A DNA stretch of 64,000 nucleotides from Thermoactinospora rubra (GTDB lineage Bacteria > Actinomycetota > Actinomycetes > Streptosporangiales > Streptosporangiaceae), in NCBI RefSeq assembly GCF_002093975.1, contig NZ_MSZZ01000010.1:62001-126000 (forward strand). Reading direction: 5' to 3'. Shown here one piece after another: positions 4,954-15,075 of this stretch. How positions within the stretch are numbered: position 1 is the first letter of the stretch; each line of letters starts with the position of its first letter. The notes below the pieces were generated by a model, which ran no database searches, was not told where the DNA came from, and saw only the letters and a program-made list of their open reading frames with translations. The position numbers and the translations under genes are program-made.

Positions 4954-5559
4954 GTGATCCGAACGTTGCTCGCGGAGGACATGGATCTCGTGCGCGGCGC
5001 CCTCGTCGCCCTCCTCGCCTACGAGGAGGACATCGAGATCGTCGCAGAGGTGGACAGGGGCGATCGCGTGCTGGCCGCCGCGCAGGCCAGCAGGCCGGAC
5101 GTGGCGGTGGTCGACCTGGCCATGCCCGGTCAGGACGGGCTGGAGGTGGCCAGGGAGCTCCACGAGGAGCTGCCCGCCTGCGGGGTGCTGATCCTGACCG
5201 GGGTCGGCACGCCCGGGGCGCTCAAGCGGGCGCTCGAGGTCAACGTCCGCGGGTTCCTGGCCAAGGACGCGCCGCCCGCGCAGCTGGCCGACGCCATCAG
5301 GAAGATCGCCGACGGCGGGCGCGTGGTCGACTCCTCGCTCGCGATCGCCGCCATGACCGGCCCCGAGGCGCCGCTCACCCCGCGCGAGCTGGACGTGCTC
5401 GGCGCGGCGGCCGAGGGGTCGTCGATCGAGGAGATCGCCAGGTCGCTGTTTCTAGCCCGGGGCACGGTCCGCAACTACCTGAGCCGCACGCGGACCAAGC
5501 TGGGGGCGCGCAGCCGCATCGACGCCATCCGCATCGCCAGGGAGGCCGGGTGGATCTGA
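4954..5559 (+). CDS. NarL/DesR-type response regulator beside the lanthipeptide cluster
   Basis: 201 residues. The receiver domain is complete: acidic pair E8/D9 in LLAEDMD, phospho-acceptor Asp in VVDLAMPG (about residue 54), Thr in ILTGVG and Lys in FLAKDAPP. A LuxR-type helix-turn-helix follows (LTPRELDVLGAAAEG to RGTVRNYLSRTRTKLGARSR). The sequence pattern is that of DesR partners of DesK kinases. A DesK-like kinase lies about 8.4 kb away at the other end of the lanthipeptide genes, so the two probably form a pair and control the cluster. GTG 4954 has AGAGGA five bases upstream. The last 108 bases overlap the convergent peptidase gene. Confidence 0.9.
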   Translation: MIRTLLAEDMDLVRGALVALLAYEEDIEIVAEVDRGDRVLAAAQASRPDVAVVDLAMPGQDGLEVARELHEELPACGVLILTGVGTPGALKRALEVNVRGFLAKDAPPAQLADAIRKIADGGRVVDSSLAIAAMTGPEAPLTPRELDVLGAAAEGSSIEEIARSLFLARGTVRNYLSRTRTKLGARSRIDAIRIAREAGWI

Positions 5560-7512
5560 CAGGCCGGTGTGCGCGGCGAGGAAGGCGAGCGCGTCGGCCG
5601 CCAGGTCGACCGACCGGCTCACGGCGCGCGCTCCGTGCCCCACGTCGGGCTCGTGCCGCAGCAGCACCGGGCGCGGCGAGCCCGCCCACTGCAGCGCCGC
5701 GCACATCTTGCGCGCGTGCATGGGGTCCACCCGCGTGTCGCCGCCCGCGACGGTGAACAGCGTGGCCGGGTACGGCACGCCGCGCCGTACCCGGTGATAG
5801 GGCGAGTACGCCAGCAGCCAGGCCAGCTCCTCGGGCACCTCGGCCGAGCCGTACTCGCCGCGCCAGGCGGCGCCCAGTCCGAAACGCTCGTAGCGCACCA
5901 TGTCCAGCAGCGGCGCGGCGCACACGCACGCGGCGAACAGTTCCGGCCGCTGGGTCAGCATCGCGCCCACGAGCAGCCCGCCGTTCGACTCACCCCACAG
6001 GCCCAGCTGCGCCGGGGTGGTCCAGCCGTCGGCGATGAGCTTCTCAGCGGCGGCGGCGAAGTCGTCGAAGGAGTTCTGCTTGTGCTCGCGCATGCCCTGC
6101 CGGTGCCAGGCCTCGCCCTCCTCCCCGCCGCCACGGATCCCGGCGACGGCCAGCACGCCCCCGGCCTCCACCCACGCCAGGGAGTCGGCCGCGTACCCGG
6201 GCGTGAGGGGGACGCCGAAGCCGCCGTAGCCGGTGAGGATCGCCGGCCGCGGGCCGCCGGTCCAGGGCCGCGCCACCACGATCAGCCGCACCCGGGTCCC
6301 GTCGGCGGACACGCACGTCAGCTGGCGGCTGTCCACCTCCGGCAGCCGCGCGTCGCCCGGCGGAGCCGCCCACGGCGTCGTGGTGTTCTCGCGGGCGTCG
6401 TACCGCCACACGCCGGGCGGGGTGACCGCGTCGGTGTAGGTGAACCACGCCTCATGCCCGCCCTCCGGCCGGACGGTCAGCGACCCCACGCTCCCCTTGC
6501 CGGGCAGCTCGACGCCGCCGACGCGCCGCCCGGTCGCCAGGTCGTGCACGCCGATCTCGGCGACCGCGTGCCGTACCCGGGACACCAGCAGCCTGTCCTC
6601 CAGCACCGTGAAGGCCCGCGCCACGGAGCCGGGATCCTCGGGGACGAGGTCGTGCCAGGTCCGCGGGTCGCCGAGGTCGGCGACGCACAGGCGGCCCCGG
6701 GGGGCGTCGCGGTCGGTGAGCACGTACAGGCGGCCGTCGTGGCCCACCGCGGCCGCGCTGCGCGCGACCCCCGCCTCCTGCACCGCGCGCAGCTCGCCGG
6801 TGGACGGGTGCAGCAGCCACAGCTCGTTGGGGGCGGACGGCCCGGGAGCGGCCGACACCGTGAGCCATTCGCCGCCCGGACCGGCGCCCAGGCCGTAGGA
6901 GGCGCCCGGGTGCGAGGCGAACAGCAGCTCGTCGTCCGGCTCGCCGACCCTGTGGAGGAAGACGCCCTCGCGGAAGCGCACGTAGCAGAACGCCCGGCCG
7001 CCCGGCAGCCACGCGACCGGCGAGTAGCGGCAGCCGTGGACGGGGCCGTCCACGCGGGTGCCGCCGGCGACGTCCATGACGTACAGCTCGGCGCGCTCGT
7101 CCCCGCGCCGCGACACCTGGTAGGCCAGCAGGCGGCCGTCGTGGTCGGGCTGCCACTCGTCCAGCGTCGTCAGCCCGGTGGGGTCCAGGCGCATGGGGTC
7201 GAGCAGGACGTCCTCGTCCAGGTGCAGCACCGGGTGTTCCTGCCCGGCGGTACGGCGCAGCCAGAAGCGGCGTCCGCCGCGCCACACGGGCGGGGTGACG
7301 GCGCCGACGGCGCCGAGCTCGGCGAGCCTGCGGCGGAAGCGGTCACGCCAGGGCAGGGTGCGGGCGTGGGCCCGCCACAGGTCCTCCTGCGCGGCCAGCC
7401 AGGCCAGGGTCTCGGGGGCGGCGGGGTCCTCCAGCCAGCGGTAGGGGTCGGGGACGTCGTGGCCGTGCAGGGTGGTGACGACGGGCAGGCGAGGGGCGTG
7501 CGGACAAGTCAT
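5452..7512 (-). CDS. Prolyl oligopeptidase (S9), likely lanthipeptide leader protease
   Basis: 686 residues. The N-terminal part (about 1-390) is the S9 beta-propeller, starting with the family hallmark DPYRWLED. The C-terminal alpha/beta-hydrolase domain has the catalytic Ser in GESNGG, Asp in DTRVDP and His in VGHGA, all present. No signal peptide is seen. ATG 7512 overlaps the stop of the ABC gene (ATGA), so it is the last gene of the lanthipeptide operon. In the flavipeptin cluster of Kribbella a prolyl oligopeptidase (FlaP) removes the leader of a class III lanthipeptide; the same job is inferred here because the exporters lack a C39 domain and the precursor leader has one Pro. The 3' end runs 108 bp into the convergent regulator gene and ends at TAG 5452-5454. 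Confidence 0.9.
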   Translation of the reverse strand: MTCPHAPRLPVVTTLHGHDVPDPYRWLEDPAAPETLAWLAAQEDLWRAHARTLPWRDRFRRRLAELGAVGAVTPPVWRGGRRFWLRRTAGQEHPVLHLDEDVLLDPMRLDPTGLTTLDEWQPDHDGRLLAYQVSRRGDERAELYVMDVAGGTRVDGPVHGCRYSPVAWLPGGRAFCYVRFREGVFLHRVGEPDDELLFASHPGASYGLGAGPGGEWLTVSAAPGPSAPNELWLLHPSTGELRAVQEAGVARSAAAVGHDGRLYVLTDRDAPRGRLCVADLGDPRTWHDLVPEDPGSVARAFTVLEDRLLVSRVRHAVAEIGVHDLATGRRVGGVELPGKGSVGSLTVRPEGGHEAWFTYTDAVTPPGVWRYDARENTTTPWAAPPGDARLPEVDSRQLTCVSADGTRVRLIVVARPWTGGPRPAILTGYGGFGVPLTPGYAADSLAWVEAGGVLAVAGIRGGGEEGEAWHRQGMREHKQNSFDDFAAAAEKLIADGWTTPAQLGLWGESNGGLLVGAMLTQRPELFAACVCAAPLLDMVRYERFGLGAAWRGEYGSAEVPEELAWLLAYSPYHRVRRGVPYPATLFTVAGGDTRVDPMHARKMCAALQWAGSPRPVLLRHEPDVGHGARAVSRSVDLAADALAFLAAHTGLSDPPGLPGDADGVDAAARPQLGPRAAQVVADRAPG

Positions 7513-9443
7513 GAGACGGGCTCCCGGTGGCCGGTGAGGTCGGCGTAGAGGGGGACGGTCGAGACGAGCTCGTCGTGGGTTCCGGCGACGGCCCGCCCGC
7601 CGTCGACCAGCAGGACGCGCCCGGCCCGGCGGGCCGAGCCCAGCCGGTGGGCGATGACGACGAGCGTGCCGCCGCGCCGGGCGAAGGCGCGTTCGACGCG
7701 GGACTCCAAGGCGGGGTCGAGGTGGCAGGTGGCCTCGTCGAGGATGACGAGGGGCGCGGGGCTGAGGTAGGCGCGGACGAGCGCGACCAGCTGCCGCTCG
7801 CCCGCGGACAACCGCCCGGGGTCGACCTCGGCGTCCAGGGCGGCGCTTCGCCGTGCCGCCACCACGTCGAGGAGGGGGTGCGCGCCGAGCTCCTCGACGG
7901 CCGCCATCACCTCCCGATCGGTCGCGGGGGCGAGGTAGGCGAGGTTCTCCCGCAGGGTGCCGCGGAAGACGTACGCCTCCTGGGGGATCAGCACGCGCGC
8001 CGCCGGGCCGGCGCGGTCGGCGGGGACGCCGCCGACGAGCACCTCGCCCTCGCCGGGCCGCAGGAGCCCGGCGACGAGCGCGGCGAGCGTCGACTTGCCC
8101 GCCCCGCTCGGGCCCACCACGGCGAGGTGCTGCCCGCGCGGGACGGCCAGGTCCAGGTTGCGGACCACCGGTTCGGCATGCGGGCCGTACGCGAAGGTGA
8201 CGCCCCGCAGCTCGATCGCGGGGCTGTCCGAGGCGGCGGTACGGCCCGGCGACGCCAGGGATCTCGCCGACGCCGGCGAGCCGGCTGACGCGGTACGGCC
8301 CGCCGACGCCGTACGGCTGGGCCGCTCCCTCGGCGTTGCGCGATCGGGCCGCAGGATGCGGTCGAGCGCCGCGACCAGGCGGACCCCGCTGACGCCCACG
8401 CCCTCGACCAGCCCGCCCAGCGCGGGGGCCAGGGACTGGGTGACGTACGCCAGCGCCCCCACCACGGTCCCCACGCCCACGCCGTTCCGCAGGAGCGTGG
8501 GCATGGCGGCGAGGACGAGCACGACCGGCAGCCAGGCGCCGAGGGCGAGCGCCGCCGTGCGGACCGCGGTGACGCGCGCCACCGCGCCCGCCGCGGCCAC
8601 CTGGGCCGTGATGCGGCGCTCGACGTCGGCGCCGACGCGCTCCTCGGCCCCGCACGCCGTGATGTCGCGCAGCCCGTGGGCGACGGAGGTCAGCAGCTCG
8701 GTGGTCGCCTCGTCGGCCATGAGGTACGCGCGCTGCCTGCGGGCGAGCGCGGGCAGGGAAGCGGCGAAGACGGCGACCCCGGCGGCGAAGGGCGCGAGCA
8801 CGAGCCCGGCGAGCGAGGGCGCGAGGGTCAGCAGCCCGGCCCCTGCGCTGACGAGCGTGAACGCGAAGCCCCTCACCACGCCGACGAGGGCGGCGAAGGC
8901 GTCCCTGGCCAGCTCGACCTGGAGCGTGGCGCGCGCGACCGCGGCGCTGCCGGCTCGCGGCGCGCAGGCGGAGGCGACGGCGTGGCCGAGCACGCCGCGG
9001 ACGACCCGCTCCAGGAGGTCGTCGCGGAACGGCTCGGCCACGGCGGCGACAGCCAGGACGACCTGGCGGGCGGCGCCCGCGGCGGCCAGCCAGGCGGCTC
9101 CCAGCAGACCCAGCCAGGCCAGCCCGAGCAGGGGCGCGCCCGCGGCGAAGCCGTCGACGGCGCGGGCGACGGCGTGGCCGATGAGGAAGGCGGGGGCTAC
9201 CTCGACCAGCGACCAGGCCGCGATCCTCGCCAGCGCGCCCGGCCGCCGTCCCAACGCCGCCCGCACCACGGCACCGGGCCGGAGGGCGGGGGTGAAGGAT
9301 GACGGCATGCCGCCCAGGGCTTCCGGCGAGGAAAGCGGTGGCAAAGAAGGCAGTGGCGAGGAAGCCGGTGGCGAAGAAGGCGGTGGCGAAGAAGGCGGTG
9401 GCGAAGAAGGCGGAGGCGAAGAAGGCGGAGGCGTCGAGGTCAT
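7509..9443 (-). CDS. ABC exporter half-transporter with Pro/Ser-repeat N-terminus
   Basis: 644 residues: an unusual N-terminal tail of about 40 residues built from PPPSS repeats, then a transmembrane domain of about six helices, then a nucleotide-binding domain. Walker A is GPSGAGKST, the signature is LSAGERQ and Walker B is LVILDEAT with the catalytic Glu present. ATG 9443 overlaps the stop of the upstream ABC gene, and its own stop overlaps the peptidase start. Together with the neighbouring half-transporter it should form a heterodimer that exports the modified peptide. There is no C39 peptidase domain. A linker rich in Ser/Ala/Arg joins the membrane and ATPase parts. A start further downstream, for example at the Met in GGMPSSF, would skip the repeat but would lose the coupling overlap. 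Confidence 0.88.
   Translation of the reverse strand: MTSTPPPSSPPPSSPPPSSPPPSSPPASSPLPSLPPLSSPEALGGMPSSFTPALRPGAVVRAALGRRPGALARIAAWSLVEVAPAFLIGHAVARAVDGFAAGAPLLGLAWLGLLGAAWLAAAGAARQVVLAVAAVAEPFRDDLLERVVRGVLGHAVASACAPRAGSAAVARATLQVELARDAFAALVGVVRGFAFTLVSAGAGLLTLAPSLAGLVLAPFAAGVAVFAASLPALARRQRAYLMADEATTELLTSVAHGLRDITACGAEERVGADVERRITAQVAAAGAVARVTAVRTAALALGAWLPVVLVLAAMPTLLRNGVGVGTVVGALAYVTQSLAPALGGLVEGVGVSGVRLVAALDRILRPDRATPRERPSRTASAGRTASAGSPASARSLASPGRTAASDSPAIELRGVTFAYGPHAEPVVRNLDLAVPRGQHLAVVGPSGAGKSTLAALVAGLLRPGEGEVLVGGVPADRAGPAARVLIPQEAYVFRGTLRENLAYLAPATDREVMAAVEELGAHPLLDVVAARRSAALDAEVDPGRLSAGERQLVALVRAYLSPAPLVILDEATCHLDPALESRVERAFARRGGTLVVIAHRLGSARRAGRVLLVDGGRAVAGTHDELVSTVPLYADLTGHREPVS
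9323..9434. repeat. 15-bp tandem repeat encoding PPPSS
   Basis: About seven copies of a 15-base unit (plus-strand form GAAGAAGGCGGTGGC and variants). Four copies encode PPPSS exactly; the more 3' copies in the gene are degenerate (PPASS, PLPSL, PPLSS). The unit length keeps the frame, so copy-number change would alter tail length without inactivating the exporter. Confidence 0.9.
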
Positions 9444-11092
9444 TGCCGCTCCTCGAAGTGCCGCTCCTCGAAGACGGCCCGGTACTCCGGCTCGCTCCAC
9501 AACTCCCCGTGCGTGCCCACGGCCCGCACCCGCCCGTCCTCCATCCACACCACCCGATCGGCGCGAGCCGCCGTCGCCACCCGGTGCGTCACGACGAGCC
9601 GCGTGCACCCGCCGTACTGCTCGGTCAGCGCCCTGCTCACCTGCCGCTCGGTCACGGTGTCCAGGCTTGAGGTGGCGTCGTCCAGCACGAGCAGCCGCCG
9701 CGCCCGCGCGAAGGCCCGGGCCAGTCCCAGCCGCTGCCGCTCCCCGCCCGACAGGGGCGCCGACGCCAACGCCGTCCCATATCCCCGCGGCAACCGCCCG
9801 ATGAAGCCGTCGGCTCCCGCCGCCCGAGCCGCCCGTTCGGCACCTCCGCCGTCGATCCCGCCCATCCCGATGGCCGCCCCGACCGTCTCCCCCAGCAGCA
9901 CCGGACGCTCGAAGGCGTATCCCACCGCCGCTCGCAGCTCCTGGCGCGACAGCTCGGGCAGCGGCACCCCGTCCAGCAGCACGACGCCCGTCGCCGGGTC
10001 CCTCAGCCGCCCCGCCAGCTCCGCCAGCGCGCTCTTGCCCGACCCCGAGCGCCCGGCGACCGCCGTGACCGACCCGCCCGGCACCACCAGGTCCCCTACG
10101 GGCGTCCCCCGCAGCTCCAGCGTCCCGTCGCCCTCCGGCAGCCGCCGCGTGCCGTACCCGAGGACCGGCACGTCGAGCACCTCGGCGACCCGGCCCGCGG
10201 CCGACCGGGCCCGCGCCAGCTGCCCGACGTAGCCCAGCGCGCCGCTCAGCGCCGCGCCCAGGACCGCGTACCGCGCCGCCGCGTACAGCTCCCCGATCGT
10301 CAGCCGTCCCCCGGCCAGCAGCCACCCCCCGCACGCCAGCACCGCCACCTCCAGCACCGGCACCATGACCCCCGCCCGCACGCCGGCCGTGGCCGTGGCC
10401 CGCCACAGCTCCGCGCCGTGCGCCCGCAGCCGCGGCAGCGGCTCCAGCACCCGCCGGGCCTCCCGCTCGACGGTCCCGGCCGCGGCGATCGTGCGCGCGC
10501 CGCCGAGGGCGTCCACCAGCCGCGCGGCGATGTGTCCCTGGGTCTCCTGGTAGGCGCCGGACAGCGTGCCCCCGGCCCGCAGGAAGGCGCGCAGGACCAG
10601 GAGGATGGCGGCGACCCCCGCGCCCAGGGCCAGCGTCAGCAGCGGGTCGATGAGGGTCAGCGCGACCAGCGCCCCGGCCGTGGGCACGAGCAGGGCGACG
10701 GCGCTCACCAGCGCCTCCGGCGCCCGTCCCACCTCTTCCGCGTTCATTCCCGCGCGCGTGACGAGCTCGCCGGGCGGGAAGCGGCGCGTCATGTCCGGCC
10801 CGGCGCCCAGCAGCCGCCGTACGACCGCCCGCCGCACCCAGGCCGAGGCCCGCGCGCCGGTCAGCCCGCGTGCCCACACGGCCAGGCACTCCCCGCCCAG
10901 CACGACCGCGACGGCCGCCAGGCACGCGCCCAGCCAGCCGGCCGCGCCGCGGCTGTCGATCGTCCCGCCGATCAGGGTCGGCAGGGCCAGCTCGCCGGCC
11001 GCCGCGGCGGTCGCGCCGGCCGCCAGCAGCACCGGCCACGGGCCGCCGCGGCGCGCGGCACGCGCCGCCAGCCGATCGGCCAAGCGCATCAT
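9440..11092 (-). CDS. ABC exporter half-transporter with degenerate ATPase site
   Basis: 550 residues: six-helix membrane domain, then an ATPase domain with Walker A GRSGSGKSA and signature LSGGERQ. Walker B reads LLVLDDAT, so the usual catalytic Glu after the Asp is replaced by Asp. That is the classic degenerate-site subunit of a heterodimeric exporter, and the partner encoded just downstream has the normal Glu. The start is the first of two ATGs (11092), with GGAGG four bases upstream; the gene overlaps its partner by four bases. It lies 73 bp after the precursor gene, separated by a strong hairpin. The inferred role is secretion of the class III lanthipeptide. Confidence 0.9.
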   Translation of the reverse strand: MMRLADRLAARAARRGGPWPVLLAAGATAAAAGELALPTLIGGTIDSRGAAGWLGACLAAVAVVLGGECLAVWARGLTGARASAWVRRAVVRRLLGAGPDMTRRFPPGELVTRAGMNAEEVGRAPEALVSAVALLVPTAGALVALTLIDPLLTLALGAGVAAILLVLRAFLRAGGTLSGAYQETQGHIAARLVDALGGARTIAAAGTVEREARRVLEPLPRLRAHGAELWRATATAGVRAGVMVPVLEVAVLACGGWLLAGGRLTIGELYAAARYAVLGAALSGALGYVGQLARARSAAGRVAEVLDVPVLGYGTRRLPEGDGTLELRGTPVGDLVVPGGSVTAVAGRSGSGKSALAELAGRLRDPATGVVLLDGVPLPELSRQELRAAVGYAFERPVLLGETVGAAIGMGGIDGGGAERAARAAGADGFIGRLPRGYGTALASAPLSGGERQRLGLARAFARARRLLVLDDATSSLDTVTERQVSRALTEQYGGCTRLVVTHRVATAARADRVVWMEDGRVRAVGTHGELWSEPEYRAVFEERHFEERQ

Positions 11093-11103
11093 GTCCTCCA
11101 CAT

Positions 11104-11140
11104 GACGGGGCCGGGTGGCCGCGTGGGCCACCCGGCCGTC
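11104..11140 (-). terminator. Strong hairpin between precursor and exporter genes (attenuator/terminator)
   Basis: GGCCGGGTGGCC (11109-11120) and GGCCACCCGGCC (11126-11137) form a perfect 12-bp stem with a five-base loop. A GAC/GTC pair beyond a two-base bulge extends it. It starts 26 bases past the precursor stop. Such a hairpin can keep precursor mRNA in excess over transporter mRNA by partial termination or by blocking 3' decay. No U-run follows, as is common in actinomycetes. Confidence 0.75.
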
Positions 11141-11165
11141 GGTCACCGGATGAGGGACACCCGGA

Positions 11166-11297
11166 TCAGTGGCACAGAGCGACGCTGAGGTTGCTCGGCT
11201 TGCCGGAGTGGCACGTGAGGGCCGTGAGCGTGCTGCCGCCGCTGGCGACGTCGCTGCTCGCGGGAGCCTCCAGACCCTGCAGGTCGAGAAGGACCAT
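11166..11297 (-). CDS. lanA: Class III lanthipeptide precursor peptide (SapB-like)
   Basis: A 43-residue peptide. The leader begins MVLLDLQGLE, the LxDLQ-type helix that class III synthetases recognise (RamS of SapB has LFDLQ at the same place). The core carries two copies of the class III motif Ser/Thr-x2-Ser/Thr-x3-Cys: S22-T25-C29 (STLTALTC) and S35-S38-C42 (SNLSVALC). Spacing is identical to SapB, so two labionin or lanthionine rings are expected. ATG 11297 lies four bases after the synthetase stop, with GGGAGG inside the synthetase 3' end, so translation is coupled. Pro12 in the leader is a plausible cut point for the cluster's prolyl oligopeptidase; Pro34 sits between the two rings. Confidence 0.93.
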   Translation of the reverse strand: MVLLDLQGLEAPASSDVASGGSTLTALTCHSGKPSNLSVALCH

Positions 11298-11301
11298 TCG
11301 T

Positions 11302-13779
11302 TCACACCTCCCTTCGCTCGTCGAGGAAAGGCAGGCCGGCTCGGGGCCCGGCGTGCGCCGAGGCCAGGGCGAGCAGGACGCCTGCCGTACCGGTGGCCAG
11401 GTCCATGGACAGGCGGAGGAGCTGGTCGCCGGGGAAGGCCAGCCCGCCGCCGTACGGCAGCGCGTGCCAGCGCAGCCCCGCGGCGCCTGAGCCGAAGGCG
11501 GCGACGATGCCCGCCCGCCCGGTGAACAGGCCGGACTGGACGAAGAAGCCGGAGCGCGCGACCAGGCGCAGCCGCGCCAGCGCGTCCGCCAGCTCCTCGT
11601 GGGGTCTGTGGGTCAGGTGGCGCGCCAGGACCATGGCGATGCCCGCCGAGCCCTCGTCGAGGTACGGCAGCAGCCGCCAGCCCTGGTTGACCTGGAGCGA
11701 GCCGTCGTCGGCCCGCCTGCAGCGGCGCAGGTCCTGCCGGAGCGCGGTCTCGGCCAGGTCGAGCAGCGAGCCGTCGCCGGTGCGCTCGTAGGCGTGCAGG
11801 AACAGCAGGGCCGGGCCGCTGGAGCCGTACATGAGCCCGGCGCGCGGGCGGGAGCCGCCGCTGAGCTCGGGCACGTCCTCGACGCCGCCGAGCCGGTCGG
11901 CGCAGATGTCGACCACGCGGGCGGCCAGGTCGTCGCGGCCGAAGTGGTAGAGGGTCAGCCCGATGCCCGGCAGGCCGGACAGCAGCGCCGACTCCAGCCG
12001 CTCGTAGTCCTCGCGCAGGCAGATCTCCAGCACGTCGAGGGCGTCCTGCCGGTGGCCGAGCACGTCCAGGACGTAGGCCACGCCGGCAAGGCCGTCGTAC
12101 AGGCCGAGGCCGGAGCCCTGCCGGGGGTGTTTGGCGTGCCGTGCCAGCCAGCCGGCGTGCACCGGCTCGCAGCCCGCCCGCGCCAGCGCGTAGAGCACGC
12201 CGGCCGCGCCGTAGGCGAGGCTGAGCCCGCGCCCAGGCTGGAACTGGGCGATGTCGCCGGGGAAGAGCCGGTCGTCGCGATCGGGCGTGGCGCTCGCGAC
12301 GATCGCGCGGGCCATCGCGTCGCGCAATTCGGGCCAGGAGGCCTCGCCCGGCATGGGCGGCGGCTCCCAGGCGGCCCGGCCCGCGATGGTGTCGACGTCG
12401 CGGCGGATGACCTGGGGCGGCACGGGGAAGACGTCCGTGACGATCTCGCCCAGGTGCCTGGCCTTGGCGCGGTGCAGGGGCTGCATGATCGTGCACTGCG
12501 GGGCGAACAGGCCCAGCCGTAAGCAGGCGAGGGCGTAGCGGTCCACCTCCACGCCCTGCCGGTCCGCCGGGGCGGCGAAGGCGGGATGGGCCAGCGCCGA
12601 GCGGGCCTGCTCGTCGGCGAGGGTGGCGACCTCGTAGTCGATGAGCACCACCCGGCCGCTCTCGGTGAGCAGCACGTTGTCGGGGTGCAGGTCGCCGAAG
12701 ACCACGCCGCGCCCGTGCAGGGAGTCCACCGCCCGCTCCACCCGCTCGGCGGTCTCCAGCGCCCACGCGGCGTACTCCTCCAGGTCCCGGCGGGTGCAGG
12801 TGGCCTTGGTGAGCGGGAAGCGGTGCACCAGGCGGCGCTGCAGGGTCACGCCGTCGACGAACTCCTGCACCAGGAAGCTGTGCTCGCCGAGCGTGAAGTC
12901 GTCGATCAGCTCGGGGACGGCGGGCAGGCCGGCCAGGCGGCGCATGATGTCGCGCTCGTGCGTCAGGCGCGCCACCGCGTCCCGCCCGGCCGCGTCCAGC
13001 CCGGCGTGCGGCCTGGCCTCCTTGAGGACCACGCGCCTGCCGGTGCGCAGGTCCTCGGCCAGGTAGACGCCGCCCCCGTTGGAGAAGTGCAGCACCTTCT
13101 CGATCTTGTACGGCAGGCCCTCGGTGGTGACCGCGTTGCGGGCCGCCAGGTGGGGCTGGAGGAACTCCGGCAGCGTGGTCCACGGCGGCACGGAGAAGAC
13201 CGCGTGCCGCACGTCCGGGACTAGCCGGCCCTGGCCGTCCTCCACCGCGAGCACCCGCTCGCCGGCCTCCGACAGGCAGTGGCGCTCGGCGAAGCCGCCG
13301 TACCTGACGTACAGGGGGCCGTCGCCGTAGCGCAGGTCCGACAGGATGTAGGGGCCCTCGACGCCGCGCAGCAGCTCGTTGAGGTCCTTCAGCGCCAGCT
13401 CCAGCTGGGCCTCGTCGCGCGGGTAGACGGTGACGAGCTTGCCGCTGGAGGCGCGCGAGGCCGCCTTGGAGCCGAGCATCACCAGGACCGGGACGCCGCG
13501 CAGGAACTTGAAGGCGATGCCGCGCGGCACGCAGTAGTCCCAGACCGTGGCCACGGCCCGCTCGGCGTGGTCGACCTTCGCGGAGACGTGGATCTTCCAG
13601 CCCTGAAGCGGGAGCGGCTCCCCCTCGGGCGCGTAGTACATCCACGTGTCGGTGGCGTGATGGGACCAGCCGTCGGGGACGGGACGCCGCGCGGCCGCGA
13701 ACGTCGCCTCCGCCGTCTTGTCGTGGAGCACGTCGTAGAACAGCGGATCCGCGAGACAGTAAAGCTCATACTGATCCAT
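11302..13779 (-). CDS. lanKC: Class III lanthipeptide synthetase (lyase-kinase-cyclase)
   Basis: 825 residues in the LanKC/RamC order. Residues 1 to about 210 are the phospho-Ser/Thr lyase domain. From about 220 to 480 there is a Ser/Thr kinase with Lys253 in VVLKEARP, catalytic loop GDLHPDN (Asp363, Asn368) and metal-binding Asp381 in LIDYE. From about 500 onward comes a LanC-like domain with its Gly-rich repeats (YGAAGVLYAL, YDGLAGVAYVL, LMYGSSGPALLFL, FTGRAGIV). The zinc-ligand CHG/Cys motifs of class I, II and IV cyclases are absent, which places it in class III. It phosphorylates, eliminates and cyclises the precursor encoded immediately downstream. AT-rich DNA upstream probably holds the operon promoter. 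Confidence 0.95.
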   Translation of the reverse strand: MDQYELYCLADPLFYDVLHDKTAEATFAAARRPVPDGWSHHATDTWMYYAPEGEPLPLQGWKIHVSAKVDHAERAVATVWDYCVPRGIAFKFLRGVPVLVMLGSKAASRASSGKLVTVYPRDEAQLELALKDLNELLRGVEGPYILSDLRYGDGPLYVRYGGFAERHCLSEAGERVLAVEDGQGRLVPDVRHAVFSVPPWTTLPEFLQPHLAARNAVTTEGLPYKIEKVLHFSNGGGVYLAEDLRTGRRVVLKEARPHAGLDAAGRDAVARLTHERDIMRRLAGLPAVPELIDDFTLGEHSFLVQEFVDGVTLQRRLVHRFPLTKATCTRRDLEEYAAWALETAERVERAVDSLHGRGVVFGDLHPDNVLLTESGRVVLIDYEVATLADEQARSALAHPAFAAPADRQGVEVDRYALACLRLGLFAPQCTIMQPLHRAKARHLGEIVTDVFPVPPQVIRRDVDTIAGRAAWEPPPMPGEASWPELRDAMARAIVASATPDRDDRLFPGDIAQFQPGRGLSLAYGAAGVLYALARAGCEPVHAGWLARHAKHPRQGSGLGLYDGLAGVAYVLDVLGHRQDALDVLEICLREDYERLESALLSGLPGIGLTLYHFGRDDLAARVVDICADRLGGVEDVPELSGGSRPRAGLMYGSSGPALLFLHAYERTGDGSLLDLAETALRQDLRRCRRADDGSLQVNQGWRLLPYLDEGSAGIAMVLARHLTHRPHEELADALARLRLVARSGFFVQSGLFTGRAGIVAAFGSGAAGLRWHALPYGGGLAFPGDQLLRLSMDLATGTAGVLLALASAHAGPRAGLPFLDERREV

Positions 13780-13926: not shown

Positions 13927-15075
13927 CTATTTTTGCGGAATACAGGCGATCAGATGGAAATGTCCATCCAAGCTTCGCCACGTCTCGATATATCCGTCTA
14001 ATTCGGTGATGCGTTCACGCAGGTTGCGCAACCCCCGCCCGTGCCCGTCCCGCCCGTGCCCGTCCCGCCCGTGCCCGTCCCGCCCGGCCTTGACCCCGTC
14101 GTTGGCCAGGGACAGCCGGATCACCCCGTCGCTCTCGGCGAGGCGGATCTCGCACTCCCTCGCGGTGGCGTGCCGCAGGATGTTGGTCACGCCCTCCCGC
14201 GCCACCAGGGCGAGCACCCTGTCGACCGCCTCGGGAAGGTCCCCGCAGCCCACCTCGACGTGGCAGCGGGCGCCCGCCGACTCCAGGATCGCGCGCGCCG
14301 ACAGCAGCTCGTCCTGCAGCGACGGCGCGACCTGGCCACGCGCCACCGCGCGCACCTCGCCCGTGATGGCGCGGACCAGCGCGAGCGCCTCCCCCAGCTC
14401 CAGCGCGGCCTTCACATCGCCGCTCTCCGCCAGCCGCTGCGCCAGCTCCATCTTCAGCACCAGGACGGCCAGGCGGTGCCCCACCAGGTCGTGCAGGTCG
14501 CGGGTGAGCCGGTGCCGCTCGGCCTCGGCCGCCCGCCGTACCTCCTCGGCGCGCAGCACGCCCAGGCAGTGCGCGCGGACCGTCAGGCTGATCACCGCGT
14601 ACTCGGCCATCCCCGCGGCGGGCACCGCCAGCGCCAGCCCCCACAGCCGCGGATCGGCGCCCAGCACCAGCAGCGGGCCGCACGCCACGGCCGGCGGCAC
14701 CGGGACCCAGGTCCGTAATCGCTCGGCCAGCACGAGCAGGCTCGCGGTCAGCAGGGAGGCGACCGGCGCCCAGGCCGCCCCCAGCACCGTCCACGGCGCC
14801 ACCGTGAGCACCGCCTGCCCGGCCAGCGGCCACCAGACGCGGCCACGGCGCCTGATCGCCCGCAGGACGGCCATCGCGTGCAGGCAGAACACCGCCGCCA
14901 GGCACGCCGCCCCGCCCAGCGGCGCGGCGGTGCCGTACGCGGCCAGGTACGCGGCCGACGCGTGGGCCACTGCCGCCACCAGCCCCAGCCGGCCGGCCGC
15001 CAGCGTGAAGCCGCCCAGCCACAGCGGGGACAACGATGCCAGCCGTACCGAGCGCAGCCAGGGTGGGCGCACCAT
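13927..15075 (-). CDS. DesK-type sensor histidine kinase of the lanthipeptide locus
   Basis: 382 residues. About 150 N-terminal residues form four to six membrane helices without a large extracytoplasmic domain. The HisKA_3 H-box follows as TRDLHDLVGHRL, with the phospho-His in DLHD, then an ATPase domain with N-box EGVTNILRHA and the Gly-rich part NDGV to GRGLRNLRERI. Between those last two motifs, in the ATP lid, sits RDGHG three times in tandem. It is the natural partner for the DesR-type regulator at 4954 on the other side of the cluster. ATG 15075 is preceded by a GAAGGG-like site. Its stop is 148 bp from the synthetase start, so it may be cotranscribed or have its own promoter. Confidence 0.88.
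   Translation of the reverse strand: MVRPPWLRSVRLASLSPLWLGGFTLAAGRLGLVAAVAHASAAYLAAYGTAAPLGGAACLAAVFCLHAMAVLRAIRRRGRVWWPLAGQAVLTVAPWTVLGAAWAPVASLLTASLLVLAERLRTWVPVPPAVACGPLLVLGADPRLWGLALAVPAAGMAEYAVISLTVRAHCLGVLRAEEVRRAAEAERHRLTRDLHDLVGHRLAVLVLKMELAQRLAESGDVKAALELGEALALVRAITGEVRAVARGQVAPSLQDELLSARAILESAGARCHVEVGCGDLPEAVDRVLALVAREGVTNILRHATARECEIRLAESDGVIRLSLANDGVKAGRDGHGRDGHGRDGHGRGLRNLRERITELDGYIETWRSLDGHFHLIACIPQK
14041..14085. repeat. Three exact copies of a 15-bp unit inside the kinase ATP lid
   Basis: GTGCCCGTCCCGCCC occurs three times head to tail. On the coding strand it gives GRDGH repeats. It is in frame and sits in the loop that closes over ATP. Confidence 0.92.

Follow-up and report, generated by a model that had tools for sequence, protein, structure and literature searches.

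A predicted SapB/AmfS-family class III lanthipeptide precursor and its gene cluster, with a candidate leader protease, in Thermoactinospora rubra

The 64,000-nt stretch of Thermoactinospora rubra DNA analyzed here (the window) contains a small gene, lanA, whose 43-residue product, MVLLDLQGLEAPASSDVASGGSTLTALTCHSGKPSNLSVALCH, is very probably a class III lanthipeptide precursor of the SapB/AmfS family that is modified by way of the adjoining synthetase LanKC; this high confidence covers the identity of the peptide and its route of modification, not its role. Family membership, cluster context, conservation and catalytic motifs are apparent on sequence grounds, and ring chemistry and biological role are the least certain parts of our account. 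The gene is an ordinary, fresh addition to a family that is already curated and large; the group annotated as SapB/AmfS at NCBI comprises more than 4,000 sequences according to the available text of PMC13380574. The cluster also encodes a prolyl oligopeptidase (POP), which is a candidate for the protease that removes the LanA leader.

Identification of the precursor gene

A first-pass annotation of this DNA had proposed a hidden lanthipeptide precursor of 43 residues, and its coordinates and length are correct as given; we add that the open reading frame of 43 codons and a stop lies on the minus strand (Table 1). The LLDLQ leader motif is present as that annotation described, as are the two core motifs S22-x2-T25-x3-C29 and S35-x2-S38-x3-C42, which end at Cys29 and Cys42 and enclose TL/ALT in ring A and NL/VAL in ring B. 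Residues 1-21 are taken as the leader, the exact leader/core border being a presumed one. The remark that Thr serves among the acceptors of the first ring holds for T25 only; S22, S35 and S38 are Ser, and T23 and T28 are enclosed by ring A. The word hidden is likewise half right, as curated family models do detect lanA, although many class III precursors were found to be unannotated in one survey (55% of them, in the part of PMC7268733 available). NF033212 (SapB_AmfS_lanti) matches residues 1-43 with 46 bits and an E-value of 4.1e-12 (hmmscan; curated cut-off 25), and Pfam PF19402 (RamS) matches the full length with 45 bits and an E-value of 1.5e-11 (cut-off 24.3). Inspection of the start places the ATG 4 nt past the LanKC stop codon, with a strong Shine-Dalgarno sequence before it. 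The reading as a lanthipeptide precursor is borne out and can be narrowed to class III, with SapB-type spacing of the core motifs and a LanKC gene alongside. Family score, LxLQ-type leader, two core motifs, class III synthetase and two ABC genes, which are among the marks of SapB/AmfS membership, are all found here.

Table 1. Features of the lanA cluster (positions are those of the window)
Feature	Position	Strand	Evidence
lanA, 43-aa SapB/AmfS-family precursor	11166..11297	-	family models; homologue in 54/54 LanKC-relative loci
Leader, residues 1-21: LLDLQ, Pro12 (11262-11264), G20-G21	11235..11297	-	conservation
Ring motif A, S22-TL-T25-ALT-C29	11211..11234	-	S22, C29 48/48; T25 47/48 distinct homologues
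Ring motif B, S35-NL-S38-VAL-C42	11172..11195	-	S35, S38, C42 48/48 distinct homologues
Inter-ring linker S31-G-K-P34	11196..11207	-	Ser31, Pro34 each 47/48 distinct homologues; outside ring motifs
C-terminal His43, outside ring motifs	11169..11171	-	47/48 distinct homologues
Shine-Dalgarno-like GGGAGGTG, within LanKC gene end	11305..11312	-	sequence; similar sites 5' of most homologues
Perfect 12-bp hairpin, 5-nt loop, between lanA and ABC exporter 1	11109..11137	-	fold z -3.55 (11085-11165)
LanKC, class III lanthionine synthetase, 825 aa: RamC_N lyase, kinase, LanC-like cyclase	11302..13779	-	NF038151, Pfam
ABC exporter 1; start ATG 11092 or 11089	9440..11092	-	Pfam ABC_membrane + ABC_tran; Walker A, LSGGE
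ABC exporter 2; start ATG 9443 or 9308	7509..9443	-	Pfam ABC_tran; Walker A, LSAGE
Prolyl oligopeptidase (POP, S9), 686 aa	5452..7512	-	Pfam Peptidase_S9_N + Peptidase_S9
LuxR/NarL-type response regulator	4954..5559	+	Pfam Response_reg + GerE
Sensor histidine kinase (HisKA_3), 5' of LanKC	13927..15075	-	Pfam

A coincidence of motifs in a G+C-rich intergenic stretch could mimic such a gene, and the motif is not vanishingly rare: a search by motif only (open reading frames of 30-80 aa with an LxLQ-type sequence near the start and two ring motifs) returned one open reading frame in the window and also one in 20 whole-window Markov resamples taken together, and without the LxLQ condition the counts were two in the window and four in the 20 resamples. 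The E-values of both family models, the open homologue in every one of the 54 related loci described below, the Shine-Dalgarno sequence and the position behind LanKC all speak against a chance open reading frame, and so does a pN/pS of 0.31 against 45 gap-free homologues, a value uncorrected for multiple hits and drawn from homologues that are not independent. Family models, conservation, pN/pS and the comparison with resampled sequence together rule out this explanation, whose probability we regard as negligible. A search with core and leader fragments as queries found no description of the exact peptide in the open-licence literature, subscription papers lying outside its scope.

Organization of the cluster

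On the minus strand the genes follow the order histidine kinase, LanKC, lanA, ABC exporter 1, ABC exporter 2 and POP. LanKC scores 1034.5 bits against the class III model NF038151, well above its cut-off of 575, and 364.1 bits against the class IV (LanL) model NF038150, below its cut-off of 650. Its kinase domain retains K253 in VVLKE, GDLHPDN at 362 and LIDYE at 379. A motif scan found no CHG motif in the LanC-like domain, and LanKC can be aligned to the class III synthetase ThurKC, the cyclase of which lacks zinc ligands as described in the available text of PMC10604976. The Asp of the pair that we take to be F770-D771 of ThurKC, a proposed cyclase base, is matched by Val of LanKC in a weak local alignment, a point against the route of modification proposed here.

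The Pfam scan listed no ABC_membrane match for ABC exporter 2. Read from ATG 9443, this protein begins with a Pro/Ser-rich (PPPSS-rich) stretch of about 40 residues, which a start at ATG 9308 skips. The response regulator gene converges on POP, the last 108 nt of which overlap it (5452-5559), and by position its product is a candidate counterpart of RamR. A histidine kinase gene stands 5' of LanKC in some, not all, homologous loci. The cluster is perhaps controlled by these flanking two-component genes.

The hairpin that separates lanA from ABC exporter 1 has counterparts among relatives. In 48 of 55 loci the last lanA copy is followed by a perfect stem of at least 9 bp, which was seen in 37 of 1100 Markov resamples made from those regions; L044, L061, L079, L084, L085, L087 and L090 are the seven loci that lack such a stem. 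The 55 loci have 37 different stem arm sequences. In five Acrocarpospora loci with two lanA copies (L068, L071, L081, L088 and L089) a strong stem occurs only after the last copy, and in L040 a stem follows both. The hairpin is probably a 3' stabilizer or an attenuator that sets the precursor level above that of the exporter.

Distribution and conservation

The 54 loci compared here were gathered from a genome collection by similarity to the LanKC of the window and are its nearer relatives. The first-pass annotation had named homologous clusters in which the peptide is missing or interrupted by stops as the observation that would count against the gene; an open homologue was found in 54 of 54 loci, in each case 3' of LanKC, and the prediction survived. 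Thirty of the 54 loci are titled Nonomuraea or [Actinomadura] parvosata, including the closest one on the LanKC tree, L060 from N. soli, with 79% identity; other loci of the 54 come from genera such as Actinomadura, Microtetraspora, Acrocarpospora, Herbidospora and Spongiactinospora. Six loci (L040, L068, L071, L081, L088 and L089) have two precursor copies.

A peptide match above cut-off occurs in 34 of the 54 genomes of the genus, and these are the very genomes that carry a LanKC of at least 69% identity and a POP of at least 66% identity, the three lists having been compared by eye. Six other genomes of the genus have only distant LanKCs (44-52% identity), with no match to the peptide. The peptide is therefore not essential to the genus, 20 of 54 genomes being without it. 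In G007 the LanKC match holds a TAG in its reading, and the peptide is open (L009). In a class-wide sample, a family match over the cut-off was present in 37 of 296 genomes. The genus also has a second, different class III cluster, L033 (G026:C1:1587631-1587759), with an LLDLQ leader, a core ending in GCAADSGLSLLLCD and a LanKC of 56% identity.

For the scoring of residue conservation, 55 loci, that of the window among them, supplied 48 distinct peptides. M1, LLDLQ, G20, G21, S22, L24, C29, S35, S38 and C42 are invariant (48/48); the collection filter demanded LLDLQ and two Cys residues, so that the LLDLQ count is not independent, and a looser filter applied to the 54 loci recovered the same motif. 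P12, T25, S31, P34 and H43 are each conserved in 47 of 48, L087 being the exception at every one of them, and His30 varies among homologues.

A cluster-encoded prolyl oligopeptidase

Residues 7-646 of POP match the prolyl endopeptidase 2bkl with an E-value of 6.3e-117, and the motifs of nucleophile, acid and base are retained. Its catalytic triad is presumably Ser509, Asp592 and His626, as read off the 2bkl alignment. POP is present in 47 of the 54 LanKC-relative loci, and six of the other seven lie on contigs that end too soon; L059 has the peptide, and its 5.9 kb of downstream sequence contain no POP. Stops occur in 17 of 51 locus matches, at query positions 651-677. All of those listed are C-terminal, beyond the catalytic part, and pseudogenes in these relatives were accordingly rejected as an explanation. 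The POP of the window seems to run on at its C-terminus, and relatives end earlier.

We considered whether POP is a housekeeping gene that happens to lie here. Every one of the 54 genomes in the genus has another POP, with 58-61% identity in 53 of them and as two pieces (65% and 53%) in G051, which makes the cluster POP an additional copy. A POP of at least 66% identity is found only in the same 34 genomes as the peptide (in G033 as two pieces, and in G009 and G041 on another contig than LanKC). The universal presence of the other POP and the restriction of this one to genomes with the peptide rule out that it is a mere housekeeping gene.

To see what else POP accompanies, regions were fetched from 20 of 39 genomes with a family match, taken from the better-scoring end. 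Ten of these loci make up the Streptomyces-like group f18 described below, without POP. POP is present in the four loci of the set with the PSNLS core (L135, L138, L140 and L142), and the remaining six have neither this core nor POP. Three POP-less clusters (L136, L139 and L141) have two precursors each, of the type CTPHENSSLSIICG, in which the second motif is S-x2-S-x2-C. The association was scored in 68 of 74 loci, six having been dropped (five of them with the core) for ending less than 5.5 kb past lanA: POP and a PSN/PSH core were both present in 51 and both absent in 16, the core stood alone in one (L059) and POP alone in none. All 57 loci with a PSN/PSH core combine Ser31, Pro34 and His43; of the 17 loci that lack this core, none has His43 and three have a Ser at the position corresponding to Ser31. 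A leader Pro is also found in 12 of 17 POP-less loci, so that its presence by itself does not imply a need for POP. POP tracks the core type (PSN/PSH), not the leader Pro.

This pattern raises the question of whether POP is not, or not only, a leader peptidase and instead cuts after Pro34 to release two one-ring peptides. The conservation of Pro34 in 47 of 48 distinct homologues and the company that POP keeps with the PSN/PSH core would fit such a cut, as would Brevibacterium, in which, according to the available text of PMC5719810, weak flaP homologues accompany six of seven class III clusters with a leader Pro in only one of six precursors. Pro12 is, however, equally conserved, and FlaP is reported to cleave after a leader Pro (PMC10885120, in the part available). 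On a LanKC tree built by a quick method with a midpoint root, moreover, the core type changes once and POP twice, and an independent-pairs test of POP against the core had only two pairs to draw on; the association is effectively one ancestral event and gives no independent proof that POP acts on Pro34. A causal link between POP and Pro34 is thus not established, and we consider cleavage there very improbable. Slightly less probable still is the broader idea that this clade makes something other than a two-ring peptide of the SapB kind and that Ser31, Pro34 and His43 together with POP serve a new maturation, which may be, for example, a POP cut after Pro34 or a crosslink between a Ser31-derived dehydroalanine and His43. 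Our preferred reading is that POP is a candidate leader protease of LanA, by analogy with flavipeptin.

Proposed maturation and comparison with known systems

We propose that the LLDLQ leader helix docks on LanKC, whose kinase and lyase domains would dehydrate S22, T25, S35 and S38 and perhaps also T23, T28 and S31. The cyclase domain, presumably zinc-free like that of other class III enzymes, would then use C29 and C42 to close two rings, of either the (methyl)labionin or the (methyl)lanthionine type, and the two ABC proteins would export the product. POP may cut the leader behind Pro12, in the manner of FlaP in flavipeptin, with further peptidases perhaps trimming what remains of it. M1 peptidases are possible agents: the genome itself has three M1 peptidase matches, two of them partial. 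Ring formation from a Thr acceptor would yield a methyllabionin or a methyllanthionine, chemistry that already has a precedent, since NAI-112 contains methyl-labionin, as described in the available text of PMC8624038.

The closest parallels are SapB/RamS and AmfS of the Streptomyces ram and amf clusters, which share with LanA the models NF033212 and PF19402, an LLDLQ-type leader and two S/T-x2-S/T-x3-C motifs; LanA differs from SapB in Thr25 of ring A and in the conserved Ser31, Pro34 and His43 outside the rings. Ten loci of one group (f18), which we infer from their cores to be Streptomyces-like, have the same gene order of LanKC, precursor, two ABC transporters and response regulator (10/10 with a regulator hit). 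Their cores are GSRASLLLCGDSSLSV/LTTCN (GDSSLS-type) in six of ten, GSQVSLLVCEFSSLSVVLC in one and durhapeptin-like in three, compared with GSTLTALTCHSGKPSNLSVALCH here, and POP is absent from all ten. Durhapeptin from Streptomyces durhamensis shares the SapB/AmfS annotation, the LLDLQ leader and two SxxSxxxC motifs with LanA; two labionins are supported for it, and a variant is morphogenetic on some Streptomyces. Its core differs from that of LanA, and POP is not named among its cluster genes in the text available (PMC13380574 for all of these statements).

Flavipeptin from Kribbella flavida (FlaA, FlaKC and FlaP), which we liken to the present system by description, also combines class III biosynthesis with a cluster POP and a leader Pro, and FlaP cuts after Pro(-12) of the fully modified FlaA (PMC10885120, in the part available). 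Both traits are found here, namely a cluster POP with intact triad motifs and a leader Pro (Pro12, 47/48 distinct homologues). In the window the transporter genes stand between lanA and the POP gene; L070, L135, L138 and L142 have the POP gene immediately behind lanA. NAI-112 from Actinoplanes is a class III product that provides, in its methyl-labionin, the precedent for a Thr acceptor, and it carries a glycosylated Trp, a residue absent from the LanA peptide (PMC8624038 and PMC10373908, as far as their available texts describe it). The protease of its cluster is the M1 enzyme AplP in the account of PMC10885120 available, in place of the POP found here. Noursin, which contains histidinobutyrine, is also a class III product with a core His; it has one Cys, and its His stands three residues past the Thr acceptor (PMC10206099, in the part available). 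In LanA, His43 is terminal, His30 is variable and a Ser or Thr three residues before either is absent, so that core spacing rules out a noursin-like (LanKC-Hbt) histidine crosslink.

By analogy with the family's namesakes, the product probably acts in development as a hydrophobic extracellular peptide of the SapB kind. A lantibiotic-type antimicrobial in place of a developmental surfactant or signal is a possible but unlikely alternative, to which the weak antibacterial activity of some class III products (NAI-112, in the available text of PMC8624038) and the patchy occurrence of the peptide in the genus (34 of 54 genomes) lend some color; strong conservation of the core extends across several genera, nearby open reading frames scanned with Pfam include no obvious immunity gene, and SapB and AmfS are morphogens as presented in the available text of PMC13380574, all of which favors the developmental reading.

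The dedicated protease is the clearest departure from the ram pattern, and most characterized class III clusters are described in the available text of PMC8960859 as having no leader protease of their own. The lanA cluster leaves known class III chemistry unchanged. Its value is as a clean and conserved system of the SapB kind beyond Streptomyces that brings along its own candidate leader protease; it could be used to study the removal of class III leaders and to ask whether Nonomuraea and related bacteria make use of SapB-like morphogens.
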